Part shown: positions 122 through 24,353 of the stretch, one piece after another
Position numbering within the stretch: position 1 is the first letter of the stretch
Layout of the letters: each line of letters starts with the position of its first letter
Made by a program: the position numbers and the translations under genes
DNA from: Pseudomonadota bacterium
GTDB lineage: Bacteria > Myxococcota_A > Polyangia > Polyangiales > JAKSBK01
Reading direction: 5' to 3'
Assembly: GCA_022361155.1 (NCBI GenBank)
Contig: JAKSBK010000507.1
Span: forward strand, 1-33,925
DNA: 33,925 nt
The notes under the pieces: generated by a model
Seen by the model: the letters and a program-made list of their open reading frames with translations, nothing else
Database searches by the model: none
Told to the model about the DNA's origin: nothing

Positions 122-2101
122 ATGGCGCCCCGTCTTTTTGACCCCAACCTCTACCGAGCTCGCGCCGACTACCGCATCAACGGGGTCAGGCGACGTCTGG
201 TCATCGATGTGGATCCCCCCGCGCGGGGCGAGGAGGTCCTTGAGCGAACGAACGACGACATCGGTGTCACGCTCAGGTTCCTGCACGAGCCACACGGATT
301 GCTGGTGCAGCCCCAGGTGGTGGCGCTGCGCCCGAATGTCGCCCTGGATCGCGTAGAACCGCTGGTGCTCGAGCAGCGCGGCACTCGAAAGCTGCGTTTC
401 TTCAGGCAGGGCTGGCAAACCTGGTCCGGTACGTCCAGCTTTGGCACGAACGTAGCCGAACCCCGGCCCCGAGGGCGCTGGTTGGGTGAGATCACACGCC
501 ATTGCGCTGCACCCAACGACGTAGCGATCGGCCACTTCAACTCCGAGCTCTGCACCTGCGCCTGCGATCTGGCCGAGCGGCGTTCGGTCGTCCTCGGCTA
601 CCTCACCACACGCTCGCAGTTCGGGGGCTTCGAGATCTTCGCCGAAGACCCGATGCGCACACGCATTGTCGCCAGGCTGCCTTTTGAGGGCGCCGCCATC
701 GAACCTCACCAGATACGCGCGTGTGAAACGCTGCTCGTCCTTTGGGGAGAAGACCCAGCGGAGTTGCTCGAGCTGTTCGCGAGCCGACTGGGGCGACGCA
801 TGTCGGCACGCGTGCCGCGAGCTCGCCCGGTCGCATGGTGCTCTGCTCACGCCTTCCCAAACATCGATGAGGAGCTCGCGCTGCAGTGTTTGGAGCGTGC
901 ATCCGCAGGCACCGAGGGAATCCCTCTTGAACAGTTCCGTCTGGCGCAGGGCTATCAGCTGGCGATCGGCGACTGGTTGCGCGCGAACGACGGTTTTTCA
1001 AGCGGCATGGCCCGCATGGCAGATGAGATCCGGCGCCGCAACATGACGCCTGGCATATGGCTCGCACCCTTCATAGCTCGCCCCGAAGCGTCGGTGGTAC
1101 GCGACCGGCCGGAGTGGTTCTTGAAAGGACCCAGGGGCGAGCTCCGGCGCGCGGTCTACAACCCAGCCTGGGGCAAGTTGAGCGCCGCAAAGGCGCTCGA
1201 CACCACGCATCCGGGCGCGCTGGCATGGGTGGCGCGTACGGTTCGCACGCTCGCTTTGGAGTGGGGATTTCACGTGCTCGAGCTCGATTTCTTGTTCGCT
1301 GCAACCTTGCCGGGGCGTCGGCACGACCCCTCGGCGACCGGCGCCCAGGCGCTACGCACAGGACTCGAGGTCATCCGCGAAGCGGTCGGGGATCAGGTGC
1401 ACCTGGTCGCCAGCGGTTGCCCGCTGGGTCCGGCCGTGGGTCTGGTCGACAGCATGCGCACGGGCCCCGACGTCGCACCCACCTGGAGCGACTGGCTCGT
1501 GCAGCGCTTGGGTGGCAACTACGAGCTGTTCCCGTCGACACGAAACGCTATTCGCAATGCGCTCGGCCGTACGTTCATGCACGGAAGACTGTGGCACAAC
1601 GACCCCGACAGCGTGCTGCCGGGAGACCAGGGCCTGGCATTGGGCGTCGAGGAAGCCCGAACACTGGCCACAGTGGGTGCGCTGACCGGAGGCTCGCTTG
1701 TGATCTCGCGAGATCTCGCCTCGGTTCCACAAGGCCGCATGGAGATCGTGCAACAGGTACTTGCTATCCAGGATACCCTGGCCGTCCCGACCTCAACCCG
1801 TTGCCTGGACCTTCTGGCACACGATTTTCCGCGACTGCTTTGGGCCGCGCGAAGCGATGGCGGCGGCTATCTAGCTGTCCTCAATCCACACGACGAAGCG
1901 CGGAAGATCGGACTGGCGCTCGATGCTTACCCATTGCTGGAGCAGCAGCTACGGGAAGGCGACGAGCTCCACGATGTGTGGACACACCGAAAGTACGCGG
2001 TGCGCAATCACGGACTCGACCTCGGCCTCCTACCCAAACACGCCGTCCGCCTGCTGCCCGTCGGCGGCGCCAACCCCCGCACGACGCCGCGCAAAACCTA
2101 G
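122..2101 (+). CDS. GH36-family alpha-galactosidase-like glycoside hydrolase
   Basis: Retaining glycoside hydrolase of the alpha-galactosidase (GH36/clan GH-D) type, expected to hydrolyse terminal alpha-galactosides. Positions below count from the upstream TTG at 80. An N-terminal beta-sandwich region precedes the barrel. The GIWLAPF strand is at 325-331, the likely nucleophile is Asp403 in HVLELDFLF, and the likely acid/base is Asp464 in SMRTGPDVAP. A WHNDPD motif (505-510) is typical of the family. ATG 122 is chosen because it starts cleanly before the conserved domain; TTG 80 would overlap the TGA of the upstream frame. Neither start has a good Shine-Dalgarno sequence. No signal peptide is visible, so it is probably cytoplasmic. 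The stop codon TAG lies in the CTAG that borders a short inverted-repeat element. Substrate specificity cannot be read from sequence. Confidence 0.85.
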   Translation: MAPRLFDPNLYRARADYRINGVRRRLVIDVDPPARGEEVLERTNDDIGVTLRFLHEPHGLLVQPQVVALRPNVALDRVEPLVLEQRGTRKLRFFRQGWQTWSGTSSFGTNVAEPRPRGRWLGEITRHCAAPNDVAIGHFNSELCTCACDLAERRSVVLGYLTTRSQFGGFEIFAEDPMRTRIVARLPFEGAAIEPHQIRACETLLVLWGEDPAELLELFASRLGRRMSARVPRARPVAWCSAHAFPNIDEELALQCLERASAGTEGIPLEQFRLAQGYQLAIGDWLRANDGFSSGMARMADEIRRRNMTPGIWLAPFIARPEASVVRDRPEWFLKGPRGELRRAVYNPAWGKLSAAKALDTTHPGALAWVARTVRTLALEWGFHVLELDFLFAATLPGRRHDPSATGAQALRTGLEVIREAVGDQVHLVASGCPLGPAVGLVDSMRTGPDVAPTWSDWLVQRLGGNYELFPSTRNAIRNALGRTFMHGRLWHNDPDSVLPGDQGLALGVEEARTLATVGALTGGSLVISRDLASVPQGRMEIVQQVLAIQDTLAVPTSTRCLDLLAHDFPRLLWAARSDGGGYLAVLNPHDEARKIGLALDAYPLLEQQLREGDELHDVWTHRKYAVRNHGLDLGLLPKHAVRLLPVGGANPRTTPRKT

Positions 2102-2281
2102 TACCGCTTGCCAGGGATTGTGATCGATTGGCGTCGAGGGCTGTCGGTCGCTGGCAAGGCGCACCAACGAAGACTGCGGTTCATTTCAATGCTGTGCAGC
2201 GCATATTCGAGGAGGTGCAACACTGCCAGCGGCCGTCAGAGCCGGCTGGAATCCACCATAATCCCTGGCAAGCGGTACTAG
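2098..2281. mobile_element. Miniature inverted-repeat element (MITE-like), CTAG-flanked
   Basis: Two inverted 21-bp ends, 2102-2122 (TACCGCTTGCCAGGGATT...) and 2257-2277, match at 20 of 21 positions when one is reverse-complemented. Each is bordered outside by CTAG (2098-2101 and 2278-2281), which could be a 4-bp target duplication or part of the repeat. The 176-bp element has no credible ORF, so it would be non-autonomous. It fills the space between the convergent GH36 and ligA stop codons almost exactly. Some IS5-family subgroups duplicate YTAR targets such as CTAG, so an IS5-like transposase could be the mobiliser; that is inference. There is only one copy in this window. Confidence 0.6.
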
Positions 2282-20249: not shown

Positions 20250-21746
20250 CTAGCCAAACTCGATGCCCTGGGCCAGGGGCAGCTTGCTCGAGTAGTTGAT
20301 GGTATTCGTGCCCCTGCGCATATAGCTCTTCCAGGAGTCCGACCCCGCCTCGCGTCCACCCCCCGTGGCCTTCTCACCGCCAAAGGCGCCTCCGATTTCG
20401 GCGCCGCTCGGGCCGATGTTGACGTTCGCGATGCCGCAGTCGCTACCTTCGGCAGAGAGGAACAGCTCGGCTTCGCGTACGTCCCGCGTGAAGATGCACG
20501 ACGACAGGCCTTGACTCACTCCGTTATGCATCTCCATGGCCTCGTCCCATTCGCGGTAGGTCATGACGTAGAGAATGGGCGCGAAGGTCTCCTCTTTGAC
20601 GATCTCCGTCTGGGCTGGCATTTCCACCAGCGCTGGGCGCACGTAGTACGCATCCGGGAATCGGTCAGCCAGCACGCGCTCACCACCGCTGACCTTGCCG
20701 CCGTCGCGTCGAGCCAGGGCCAGTGCCTGCTGCATGGTGTGAAAGGCGCTGCCGTCGATGAGCGGGCCCACCAGCGTCTCCGTTTCCAGCGGTGAGCCCA
20801 CCACCGCGGAGGCGTAGGCGGTCTTGAGCCGCGCAACCAAATCCTCTTGCACGCTTTCGTGCACAATCAGCCTGCGCAGGCTCGTGCAGCGCTGGCCTGC
20901 GGTTCCCAGCGCGGAAAAGACGATCGCCCTCACCGCCAAGTCAAGGTCCGCCGAGGGCGCTGCGATCATGGCGTTATTGCCTCCAAGCTCCAGCAGGCAG
21001 CGGCCAAAACGCCGTGCGACTCGAGGCGCGACCGCCGCACCCATGCGACAGCTCCCCGTTGCGCTGACGAGTGGGATCGCCTCGTGGTCGACCAGGACTG
21101 CCCCGAGCTCCGCCGTGCCGATCAGAACCTGGGACAGATGGTCGGGTGCCAGCTCGAATCGCTGCAGCGCCTTACCGAAGATCTGCTGGCAGGCCAGCGC
21201 GCACAGCGGCGTCTTTTCCGAGGGCTTCCAGATAACCGGGTCGCCGCACACGATAGCAAGGGCAAAATTCCACGACCACACGGCCACCGGAAAGTTGAAA
21301 GCGCTGATGACCGCGACCGGCCCCAGGGGGTGCCAGGTCTCGAGCATCCGGTGTTCGGGACGTTCCGACGCCAGGGTGAGCCCGTAGAGCTGGCGCGAGA
21401 GGCCCACGGAGAAGTCGCAGATGTCGATCATCTCCTGCACTTCGCCGAGCCCCTCCTGTAGGATCTTGCCGGATTCGAGCGTCACGAGACGTCCCAGCAG
21501 CGGCTTTGCAGCGCGTAGCTCCTGTCCAAACAGCCGAACCAGCTCCCCACGGACGGGCGCGGGCACCCGTCGCCAGTCCCGGAACGCCTCCTGGGCTTGC
21601 TCGACGGCAGCATGAACCTCGGCGGGTCGCGAACTAGGCAGCGCGGCGAGCTGCCGGCCGTCCACTGGTGAACGGACGGACAGGTCGCCATTGCTTCGAG
21701 CTCCAGGGGGGATGCCCAGGGAGCCGACTAGTGCTTCAAGTTCCAT
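20250..21746 (-). CDS. ALDH7-type aldehyde dehydrogenase (probable aminoadipate-semialdehyde dehydrogenase)
   Basis: NAD(P)-dependent aldehyde dehydrogenase, 498 residues. Catalytic Cys287 is in GTAGQRCTSLRRL, general base Glu253 in LLELGGNNAM, and Asn151 in ISAFNFPVAVWSWN. The ending GGEKATGGGREAGSDSWK and MRRGTNTINYS is characteristic of the ALDH7A1/antiquitin and AmaB group, which oxidises alpha-aminoadipate semialdehyde in lysine catabolism; the exact substrate is inferred. The ATG at 21746 has GAGG about 9 nt upstream. A MITE-like element begins 15 nt upstream of the start, inside the 5' leader region. The gene is followed without gap by the M50 peptidase. Confidence 0.92.
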   Translation of the reverse strand: MELEALVGSLGIPPGARSNGDLSVRSPVDGRQLAALPSSRPAEVHAAVEQAQEAFRDWRRVPAPVRGELVRLFGQELRAAKPLLGRLVTLESGKILQEGLGEVQEMIDICDFSVGLSRQLYGLTLASERPEHRMLETWHPLGPVAVISAFNFPVAVWSWNFALAIVCGDPVIWKPSEKTPLCALACQQIFGKALQRFELAPDHLSQVLIGTAELGAVLVDHEAIPLVSATGSCRMGAAVAPRVARRFGRCLLELGGNNAMIAAPSADLDLAVRAIVFSALGTAGQRCTSLRRLIVHESVQEDLVARLKTAYASAVVGSPLETETLVGPLIDGSAFHTMQQALALARRDGGKVSGGERVLADRFPDAYYVRPALVEMPAQTEIVKEETFAPILYVMTYREWDEAMEMHNGVSQGLSSCIFTRDVREAELFLSAEGSDCGIANVNIGPSGAEIGGAFGGEKATGGGREAGSDSWKSYMRRGTNTINYSSKLPLAQGIEFG

Positions 21747-21761: not shown

Positions 21762-21884
21762 TTAGGGCCCGCGGAAGAATACTCATCCATCTCACCGGTT
21801 CCGACCACCGCTGGCTATGTTGCGCCTTGCCAACGGTGCCCGGCCCTCGGCGATACAGACGAGTTATTCTTCCGCGGGCCCTTA
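21762..21884. mobile_element. MITE-like element, copy 1 (TTA target duplication)
   Basis: Inverted ends start GGGCCCGCGGAAGAAT at 21765 and end at 21881 with the complement; the right arm is 21 bp and the left arm lacks one A. TTA is directly repeated outside (21762-21764 and 21882-21884). The core is 117 bp. It matches copy 2 (24196-24350) along its length in the same orientation, except for a 37-bp segment missing after GGCTATGTT. No intact ORF remains. It lies between the promoter region and the ribosome binding site of the aldehyde dehydrogenase gene. Confidence 0.85.
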
Positions 21885-22521
21885 GGGGCTGGTCCGGAGA
21901 GTGCGGTCTTGCGGGAAGCGGGCCGCTTCCATGATCGCGTGGCTACATGGTCCTCCCGTGTGTGCAGCTCACGAGCTGCTCGCGCGCAGAATGCCCCAAT
22001 TGGGCCATGACGTCGACGCGGCAATCGCCGTTCTTTCCTTCCTGGCTCCGGGTTGGCCGTGTCTTTCCGACGCTGCCCGGCCAGATGTAGTTGGCTCCGT
22101 GAACAGCAGCAGTGCCCCAGCGTCCTTGCCGACCGAATGCCGAAAGCGACGCTCGCTGGTGCATCGACTGGCCGGGGTCCGCGAGGCCCTGCGCGTGGCC
22201 GTACGGGCCGATGGCGTATGTCTCGAGGTGCTTGTCGCTGCGGTGGACGCGCTCGAGCATACGCTCAGTCAGCTCGGACACTCGCGCGCGGAGGAGCTCA
22301 CAGAAGCGATGCGCCGCACCTGCCACCGTCTCGTGTATGCTCGAAGGAGCGAGATCGAGCCCCTCGTGAAGTCAATCGCCAGGCAATGCGACGGCTTGGA
22401 GCACCCCGGTAGACGGTGACGGTGCGCACGCCGGGCCGGCACGGGTCGTCGGGGTTGTCTTTCATCTGGGCTTCGTCTACTGAGGTCCAGGACGGGAGCA
22501 ACCGGACAGCTGGAGACCAAC
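21885..22521. other. Gene-poor interval, no confidently supported gene
   Basis: Overlapping frames exist on both strands, for example a plus-strand frame 21901-22419 (172 codons, helical C-terminal half with EALRVAVRADGVCLEVLV) and a minus-strand frame 21943-22326 (127 codons, KHLETYAIGPYGHAQGL). Neither has a ribosome binding site, recognisable domain or clearly better codon pattern. The segment may be a decayed gene or recently acquired noncoding DNA behind copy 1 of the MITE-like element. Confidence 0.45.
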
Positions 22522-22884
22522 GTGCTGTTTTTGCCCTACGTGAAGCCGGCGACCTGCGGCGGTCAGAGGGCGGGTCGCACGGCCCGGCCGGGACCGGTGC
22601 TCGCGTCCGCGGGCTCGTTGTTGGGAGGCGCCGCCCGGCTCTGCGGGTCCTTGGTGCTGGCTCTTGCTTCAGGCTGCGGTGCCACTGCCGGTCAACTCAA
22701 GTCCCATGCCGCAGTGGACCTGCACTGTCCCAAGAATCAGATCCAGGCAGCCGCCATTGACAGTCGCACGAGCGTCGCATGGGGATGTGGACGCAGGGGC
22801 ACCTACATCTCCCATTGCGGGGGCGGCTCTTCTTGCACCTGGATTCTCAATTCTGTCGATCGGTATTCTGACCCGACCCCTTAG
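22522..22884 (+). CDS. Small cysteine-rich lipoprotein, unknown
   Basis: 120 residues from GTG 22522, which has GGAG with a 6-nt spacer. A hydrophobic stretch ends in the lipobox LASG-Cys52 (GSLVLALASGC), so export and lipidation are predicted. The mature part of about 69 residues has four further Cys: Cys69 (DLHCP), Cys89 (WGCGRR), Cys99 (YISHC) and Cys105 (CTW), probably two disulfides. The layout DLxCP...GCGxRxxY...C...CxW resembles small lipoproteins I associate with myxobacteria, from memory only. The leader is long, and GTG 22597 would give a more usual signal of 26 residues. Its stop overlaps the convergent gene by a few bases. Confidence 0.6.
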   Translation: MLFLPYVKPATCGGQRAGRTARPGPVLASAGSLLGGAARLCGSLVLALASGCGATAGQLKSHAAVDLHCPKNQIQAAAIDSRTSVAWGCGRRGTYISHCGGGSSCTWILNSVDRYSDPTP

Positions 22885-23771
22885 AAGCTCAGCGTCATGG
22901 CGGCCGCGGCTCCACGTGGCGTCACGCCGACCCCGGCCTGAAGGCCTCGCCGGGGCTCGCTGTGTCCCTTGCCACGGCCGATCAAGTAGAGCACGACCCC
23001 CGTGCCGAGCGCCGGGATGCCGGGCTTCCAGACTACACGCTTGATCATCGCCACCGTCTTTGCGCGCCCACTGGAATCTGGTCTCTTTTCGGTGCCGTGC
23101 TCGGCGTCGTCGGCAACGCGCAGCGGTTCATGACCCTGTGCGACGTCCGCGACCGCCATGGCGTCCGCAACAGCCGCAGCGTCTCCGGCTCCCGCAACGT
23201 GGCGGACTGGCGGAGTACAGCTGACGCTACCGTGCTGCTTGGTGCATCGCTGACCCTGGCGTCGGGTCGAAATAGCATCAACGCTTCGATTTCGATCCAT
23301 CCCGTCCGGCGGTGTTGCACTGCTTTCGAATACAGGGACTATTCGCGCGACGGCGCGCCTTGCTGGCCGGGCGCCTCGAAGCCGACCTGGCGATGTTATT
23401 GTAGCCGCTACTTCCACCCCATGCCTTAGCCACGCACGCCTGTCTACATCGTCCGGCTTGCGTTCAGGGGCTGGGCTTCTCGGAGCGAGCGCGGCTCGCG
23501 CCGACGTCGGCTTCTCGTCAACACGCGTCGCTACTGGGTCTGGGGCTTTGGCACCCACGCGGCCGCCGGTGTCGGTCGATCGCTTCACTTCAGACGCAGG
23601 CGTCGGGGCACGGTGTGTCGCACCCTGGGCCTGACTCTCCTGCCCGGAGGCTTGCTCCGGGGCGCCGAACTGAACCGCCGGCACCAAGGCGGCCAAGACC
23701 CAAGAACGGAAGGCAGCGTTCTGCAGGCATCCAGGCTCATACGCTTCGACTACGCTTGCACCGAACGCCAT
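22881..23771 (-). CDS. Putative exported low-complexity protein
   Basis: About 296 residues from ATG 23771, which has GGAG 9 nt upstream. A signal-like segment (AFRSWVLAALVPAVQFGA) is followed by a long Ala/Pro/Arg/Glu-rich stretch with no recognisable fold. The C-terminus has a hydrophobic segment (IPALGTGVVLYLIGRG) and an ending (AGVGVTPRGAAAAMTLSF) like a membrane or outer-membrane strand. The frame continues open to 24152 but that part overlaps the tRNA and is not protein-like. The middle has weak coding character, so frame decay is possible. No family is recognised. Confidence 0.45.
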   Translation of the reverse strand: MAFGASVVEAYEPGCLQNAAFRSWVLAALVPAVQFGAPEQASGQESQAQGATHRAPTPASEVKRSTDTGGRVGAKAPDPVATRVDEKPTSARAALAPRSPAPERKPDDVDRRAWLRHGVEVAATITSPGRLRGARPARRAVARIVPVFESSATPPDGMDRNRSVDAISTRRQGQRCTKQHGSVSCTPPVRHVAGAGDAAAVADAMAVADVAQGHEPLRVADDAEHGTEKRPDSSGRAKTVAMIKRVVWKPGIPALGTGVVLYLIGRGKGHSEPRRGLQAGVGVTPRGAAAAMTLSF

Positions 23772-24120
23772 GCCTGCAAACTCCGCAGCACGATCATCGT
23801 AGCATGCTCCGGGCGCGCTCGCGACCGCACTCCGGCAACGCGCCCGGGCCGGAGCGGTTATTCGCGGAGCCTCCTTACAGGTATGGCGGATCGCCCGCTT
23901 CCCAATCCTCCACGCGGAGGCCTGCGATGGGTGTGAACTCGTCTTACGAGAAGCTCGTGAACAGGGCCAGCTTCCCAGGACACAGTCGAGGCACCGGACG
24001 CATAGTCCATGTCGAGGATGCCGAAACGAAGACGCGGCCGCCTGCGCGGGCGAATCGGCCGATCGAGCCGGAGGCTGGTGACCGACGCGAGCCAGCCTCG
24101 GGTTGAGCGTCCTGGGGGGG
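23772..24120. other. Gap between tRNA-Val and the exported-protein gene
   Basis: 349 bp with no supported gene. Frames on both strands run through it but lack ribosome binding sites and domain-like sequence. A run of seven or more G on the plus strand (C on the transcribed minus strand) lies next to the tRNA 3' end at 24114-24120. No T-tract hairpin terminator was found. Confidence 0.5.
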
Positions 24121-24192
24121 TGGGCGGGCGCGGGCTCGAACCGCGGACCCACGGCTTGTAAGGCCGTTGCTCTACCACTGAGCTACCCGCCC
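24121..24192 (-). tRNA. tRNA-Val (anticodon TAC)
   Basis: The minus strand folds into a full 72-nt cloverleaf. The acceptor stem GGGCGGG pairs with CCCGCCC, the D stem is GCTC/GAGC with loop AGTGGTA, and the anticodon stem ACGGC/GCCGT carries loop CTTACAA, reading anticodon TAC for valine GUA/GUG. A 5-nt variable loop and T stem CGCGG/CCGCG with loop TTCGAGC complete it. The discriminator base is A and the CCA end is not encoded. Its 5' end is 3 bases from a MITE-like element, so its native upstream promoter is displaced or absent. Confidence 0.96.
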
Positions 24193-24353
24193 TAAGGGCC
24201 CGCGGAAGAATAACTCATCCATTTCGCCGGTTCTGACCACCGCTGGCTATGTTGCTCCTCCTCGAAGTATCCCCAATACTCCTCGTCGTCGCGCCTCGCC
24301 AGCGGCGCCCAGTCCTCACCGAAACACACGAGTTATTCTTCCGCGGGCCCTAA
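24193..24353. mobile_element. MITE-like element, copy 2 (TAA target duplication)
   Basis: The core 24196-24350 is 155 bp, with perfect inverted ends of 21 bp starting GGGCCCGCGGAAGAAT. It is flanked by direct TAA repeats at 24193-24195 and 24351-24353. It carries 37 bp more than copy 1. On the minus strand a 45-codon frame (GTG 24329 to TAG 24192-24194) crosses most of it, with an acidic, Trp/Tyr-rich segment (DDEEYWGYFEEEQHSQRW). The left edge lies directly against the tRNA-Val 5' end. The target repeats TTA and TAA both fit a TNA pattern, reported for some IS5-family members. Confidence 0.88.

Follow-up and report, generated by a model that had tools for sequence, protein, structure and literature searches.

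The window (the whole stretch of DNA analyzed, 33,925 nucleotides) contains two copies of a short MITE, the first upstream of a minus-strand aldehyde dehydrogenase gene (20250-21746) whose start codon is 18 bp away, and the second separated by 3 bp from the 5′ boundary of a tRNA-Val gene (Table 1). The end sequence GGGCCCGCGGAAGAAT of both copies occurs exactly at 21765 and 24196 on the plus strand and at 21866 and 24335 on the minus strand, compared with a mean of 0.6 matches in shuffled controls even at three mismatches. The original prediction, that both copies have 21-bp inverted ends and that each has its own 3-bp direct flank, was correct for the flanks (TTA/TTA for copy 1, TAA/TAA for copy 2) and for the ends of copy 2, but the perfect terminal repeat of copy 1 is only 17 bp long, one base having gone just after it, near the left end. 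A further 37 bp were deleted between a pair of 9-bp repeats, GTTGCGCCT, and the two losses together shortened copy 1 from 155 to 117 bp. The insertion of copy 2 upstream of the tRNA-Val (24119-24195) must have cut the tRNA off from the promoter it originally had, and the outer end of the copy overlaps a sequence weakly resembling a promoter (TTGACT-16-AAGAAT). No tRNA was found near the MITE in any of 60 loci of the same genome, and a preference of the element for tRNA genes was rejected, copy 2 being a single case.

Table 1. MITE copies, target-site duplications, and hairpin cores in the window (R1, covariance model of the core)
Feature	Position	Strand	Remarks
TA duplication, left of second-family MITE	2099..2100	.	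matching TA at 2279-2280
Second-family MITE	2101..2278	+	178 bp; 19-bp perfect ends GTACCGCTTGCCAGGGATT; same core; TA/TA in CTAG
Hairpin core of second-family MITE	2139..2243	+	longer apical part; R1 31.6 bits, E 2e-5
TA duplication, right of second-family MITE	2279..2280	.
TTA target-site duplication, left of copy 1	21762..21764	.	same 3 bp at 21882-21884
MITE copy 1	21765..21881	- (core strand)	117 bp; second subfamily; 37-bp deletion and 1-bp loss
Hairpin core of copy 1	21797..21845	-	truncated, apical hairpin deleted; R1 28.4 bits
TTA target-site duplication, right of copy 1	21882..21884	.
Third core	23291..23380	-	older; motifs intact, terminal repeats decayed; R1 52.5 bits, E 2e-10
TAA target-site duplication, left of copy 2	24193..24195	.	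abutting 5′ end of tRNA-Val
MITE copy 2	24196..24350	- (core strand)	155 bp; canonical; terminal inverted repeats perfect over 21 bp
Hairpin core of copy 2	24229..24314	-	intact; CAAGGCGC-type and GCAAC motifs; tandem GA loops; R1 73.1 bits, E 3e-15 (search of the window)
TAA target-site duplication, right of copy 2	24351..24353	.

A search of the element's own genome (G000, a 5.4-Mb draft in 608 contigs) for the 21-bp end, allowing up to two mismatches, recovered 103 forward and 105 reverse ends, 208 in all, whereas the reversed control gave 2 + 2. Further copies therefore exist, and we put their number at roughly 100. Both ends were recovered for 50 copies, and of 51 sequences with paired ends, 40 measure exactly 155 bp. 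Identical 3-bp flanks were present in 30 of the 48 copies for which both ends and both flanks were available (TAA in 16, TTA in 12, TAT and TGA in one each), and a flank match over four or more bases in none. The duplication is preceded by C in 23 of the 30 and followed by G in 25, resulting in a CTWAG context. No flanks are shared between copies (best identity over 40 bp, 52%), and homology beyond the 3-bp repeats was absent among the 48. These many independent insertions with unrelated flanks and a 3-bp TNA duplication show that the copies arose by transposition, as originally proposed, and not by segmental duplication. The copies differ from the consensus by a median of 3.9%, and many are therefore not recent. 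The element has the attributes of a MITE, being short, lacking a transposase, and having terminal inverted repeats, a target duplication, and many copies. At one locus (L005, 27-243) one MITE is nested inside a truncated second MITE.

The same ends were then sought in related Myxococcota, as had been suggested with the original prediction, and in Acidobacteria, where they were found on many-copy elements of 70 to 185 bp in scattered genomes of both phyla. Each such genome has its own version of the element, and GGGCCC-type ends are absent from most of the 379 genomes of the window's phylum. In one acidobacterial genome (G058; L131, 1504-1573) there is a 70-bp minimal version with its ends nearly back to back and flanks of TAA and TTA. 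Another genome (G034; L087, 919-1245) contains two consecutive copies of a distinct fold-back element, which is 162 bp long, ends in GATGTGC(T/G)CGGCGGAAGT, and has a similar central hairpin.

The TNA duplications and the GG start of the MITE would also suit the IS1031 group of the IS5 family. The original prediction had made this IS5-family link and had expected a related transposase elsewhere in the genome, in which case the element would be an ordinary internal-deletion derivative of a TNA-duplicating IS5-family element. Neither expectation was supported in the own genome: profile searches for IS5-type genes gave no match to PF13340 or PF13359, none of four PF01609 matches has MITE-like ends, and no IS5-type transposase with these ends was found; the ISAzo13 transposase model PF07592 likewise gave 0 matches in the 608-contig draft. 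The search for a full-length insertion sequence (IS) led to two relatives, where intact ISAzo13 elements carry similar ends or the same end layout. In G268, a 1.9-kb element encoding an ISAzo13-family transposase (L198, 85-1984) has a left end, GGGCCCGCGCAACAATAA, identical to the MITE end at 16 of 18 positions and a right end, GGACCCGCGCAGAAATAACTC, identical at 17 of 21, and its flanks differ, being TAA at one end and TTA at the opposite end. A second ISAzo13 element, in G034 (L199), has the ends GGCACCGCCGCAAAATAA and is flanked by TTA/TTA within CTTAG. An open reading frame in the upstream part of the G268 element (152-1045) has no Pfam match and apparently encodes either an N-terminal portion of the transposase that has become separated or an additional gene.

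Because its ends and its 3-bp duplication (30 of 48 copies) match those of the ISAzo13 elements in relatives (L198 and L199), the MITE is best read as ISAzo13-mobilized. It is probably moved by ISAzo13-type transposases, and from the transposases of these relatives we infer movement in trans. Three-base-pair target duplications have been reported for the ISAzo13 family, as for its eukaryotic kin Zator (PMC10045372). The ISAzo13 gene of G000 may have been lost or may be absent from the fragmented assembly; a MITE can outlive its partner, and the absence of the transposase therefore weakens ISAzo13 mobilization without excluding it. Descent from an IS5-family element, against which stand the missing PF13340 and PF13359 genes, the ISAzo13 elements that have both the ends and the TTA-in-CTTAG target, and an interior that is a conserved fold and not an IS remnant (see below), appears very unlikely. 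A transposase remnant with a GGGCCC end beside it in G095 (L201) was not counted as evidence for an ISAzo13 partner, since this end is that of an adjacent MITE with its own core inside. L087 and L190, candidates for autonomous copies, were rejected because no transposase was found in them.

On one strand, copy 2 folds end to end, with a free energy of −102.6 kcal/mol and a z score of −13.5 as RNA, and a z score of −10.9 as DNA. The consensus structure of seven representatives (RNAalifold) contains isolated base pairs between 2x2 loops, two of them with exchanges of G-C to C-G. The seven were used to build a covariance model, R1, which at E ≤ 1e-4 found the core in 110 of the 379 phylum genomes and, in an Acidobacteria-centered sample, in 57 of 297; the genomes without a match, about two thirds or more, serve as a natural negative control. 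In an alignment of 72 cores (A3), which is biased toward the structure since R1 was seeded and aligned with structure in mind, 94.5% of the pairs are standard, both partners vary in 24 of the 26 pairs, and covariation is strong, scoring 0.560, compared with 0.153 ± 0.009 after shuffling and 0.05-0.07 when partners were slid. Because this alignment was fitted to the structure, we also registered the cores by the motifs only: the outer helix was 85% complementary, compared with 14-27% when slid, and the inner positions +0, +1, +4, and +7 were paired in 100, 96, 86, and 86%, respectively. The two strands of the internal loop, CAAGGCGC and GCAACGC(A/C)G, are invariant in all or nearly all 72 cores, the pairs C21-G89 and G24-C85 are invariant in 71 of 71 distinct rows, and the 2x2 internal loops recur with a period of three and are mostly GA/GA. 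The interior of the element is a conserved folded hairpin and not leftover IS sequence.

MITEs often fold back, and this one is palindromic over its whole length, with arms outside the core that lack a clear strand preference for G-U pairs; the likeness of the cores could then reflect common ancestry and the fold could be without function. Plain decay would erode helices and loop motifs alike, and this counts against such an origin, as the helices covary far above shuffles while the two internal-loop motifs stay invariant, and the isolated single pairs between 2x2 loops covary too. We therefore regard a functionless fold as unlikely. The core might instead work as double-stranded DNA, with CAAGGCGC and GCGTTGC, a fixed distance apart, as two binding sites of a protein such as a transposase or a nucleoid protein. 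Both motifs are invariant, their spacing is near-constant, and the length of the element is nearly constant, all of which would fit; this explanation is nevertheless improbable, leaving as it does the covariation of the flanking helices and of the isolated pairs unaccounted for. It is most unlikely of all that the element encodes a small peptide. A frame on the core strand (...DWAPLARRDDEEYWGYFEEEQHSQRWSEP...) is open in canonical own-genome copies, but in the G058 and G277 families the corresponding frame, in sequences read by eye, contains stops, indels differ between families, and conservation tracks pairing rather than codons.

The preferred reading is that the core acts as a folded single strand, probably in association with a factor of host or transposon origin. 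Within the core, the core-strand helices contain 88 G-T and 27 A-C mismatches (the two fixed pairs excluded), an excess to which R1 itself contributes a bias by favoring G-T-rich core-strand sequences. More G-T than A-C in the core strand fits folding of that strand as RNA or single-stranded DNA. Outside the core the counts are 145 G-T and 101 A-C (35 members versus 23), a weak strand difference, and strand bias, present in the core and weak outside it, was rejected as proof of RNA. In our estimate the chances are about even that the core functions as an RNA hairpin formed after read-through transcription, and action as an extruded or single-stranded DNA hairpin in transposition or replication is possible, if rather doubtful; we would slightly prefer RNA.

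In Rfam 15 no match to the element was detected at E ≤ 1 in 12 loci, and within the window only the tRNA was identified. No match to the core sequence was found in plasmids by DNA similarity, and literature searches with sequence strings returned unrelated matches only; the hairpin core is thus undescribed in Rfam and in the searched literature. Similar CAAGGCG...AACGC repeats appear to occur in other proteobacteria, which provides a lead. Integron attC sites have terminal RYYYAAC/GTTRRRY boxes and no target duplication, and this identity was rejected for an element with GGGCCC ends and TWA duplications. Identity with REP/RAYT elements was likewise rejected: the ends and size are wrong, and target duplications are present. 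A contig classed as viral (IMGVR_UViG_3300022695_000189; L297, 3155-3350) carries two cores in opposite orientation.

The core is not confined to elements with GGGCCC ends. The window itself contains a second-family MITE (Table 1) whose core arms share 76-80% DNA identity with the core arms of the GGGCCC family and which, with its TA duplication and terminal repeats (GTACCGCTTGCCAGGG), has features of an IS630-type MITE. It follows immediately on the gene at 80-2101, after the stop codon. A full second-family copy flanked by TA/TA is found elsewhere (L054, 1675-1852), 19 bp from a GGGCCC copy, and a partial copy in L076. The third core of the window lies between the two reported copies, with AATARCATC visible on both sides, and no clear terminal inverted repeat was found around it. 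Many R1 matches sit in MITEs with ends other than GGGCCC, for example GCAGCCCGTGG, GGAGCCTGACCCAAG, or GTGTCC(C/T)G, each directly following CTA. Automatic calling identified 14 core-bearing MITEs with 3-bp TNA duplications and 22 with 2-bp TA duplications, and lengths of 155-163 bp are found in both classes. An IS630 element with the CTA-GTGTCC(C/T)G ends (L290, 896-2055) was detected in one searched genome, and similar ends, on L289 and L291, include a case in another genome. A tree of the cores, which is poorly resolved and in which the end-type labels of imperfect cases are judgment calls, has at least three changes of end type if firm branches alone are counted; the best tree has 13.

Taken together, we consider it likely that these are ISAzo13-mobilized MITEs with a separate conserved folded core whose ends have been exchanged over time. 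An ISAzo13-family transposase acting in trans would recognize the GGGCCCGCGGAAGAATAAC ends of a noncoding MITE of ~155-160 bp, excise it, and insert it at CTWAG with duplication of TWA; copy number and flanks show that such insertion has taken place ~100 times in the own genome. The core module consists of the outer helix, the invariant internal loop, the single pairs between 2x2 loops, and the apical hairpin. Related MITEs of Myxococcota and Acidobacteria keep this module and the length of ~160 bp while carrying other ends, some ISAzo13-like with TNA duplications and others IS630-like with TA duplications. Most likely, what has lasted of one old MITE lineage is this module, the ends having been swapped several times to suit the available transposases, and the module probably acts through a folded single strand to which a host or transposon factor binds. 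A broader proposal, which we make tentatively and rate as somewhat short of probable, is that of a core-defined transposon satellite that swaps ends across at least ISAzo13 and IS630, in two phyla, probably with a binding partner of its own.

MITEs are usually viewed as decayed ISs whose middle is without meaning. In the present elements conservation lies in the middle, which shows strong base-pair covariation as in structured RNAs, and the ends are exchangeable; if this is true, bacterial intergenic repeats of a very common type have a directly testable function. MITEs as a kind and ISAzo13 as a family are known, and what is new is a MITE lineage recognized by its conserved folded core. The finding also links ISAzo13 to MITEs, a connection not drawn by the single paper in the literature searched that names both. 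With the ISAzo13 family (PF07592, NF033519; kin of the eukaryotic Zator) the MITE has in common the end layout GG....GC.G.AAAATAA and a 3-bp TWA duplication in CTWAG, perfect on L199 and present also on L198; unlike ISAzo13 elements, it lacks both a transposase and an interior made of IS sequence. IS630/Tc1-mariner elements resemble the sister MITEs with the same core, which have TA duplications and in some cases the CTA-GTGTCC(C/T)G ends, whereas the GGGCCC family has 3-bp duplications. The ERIC and Correia (NEMIS) MITEs, which have TA duplications, are by description likewise short, many-copy, and fold-back, and we know of no link between them and a core common to different ends. Their hairpins act in transcripts through RNase cleavage (PMC10969869), which shows that a role at the RNA level is possible for MITE hairpins. 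The REP/BIME repeats with RAYT transposases are likewise many-copy palindromes, with roles in transcripts (PMC3733652). REPs, however, are 20-40 bp long and carry GTAG or CGTC tags, whereas the MITE described here is ~155 bp long and has terminal repeats and target duplications.
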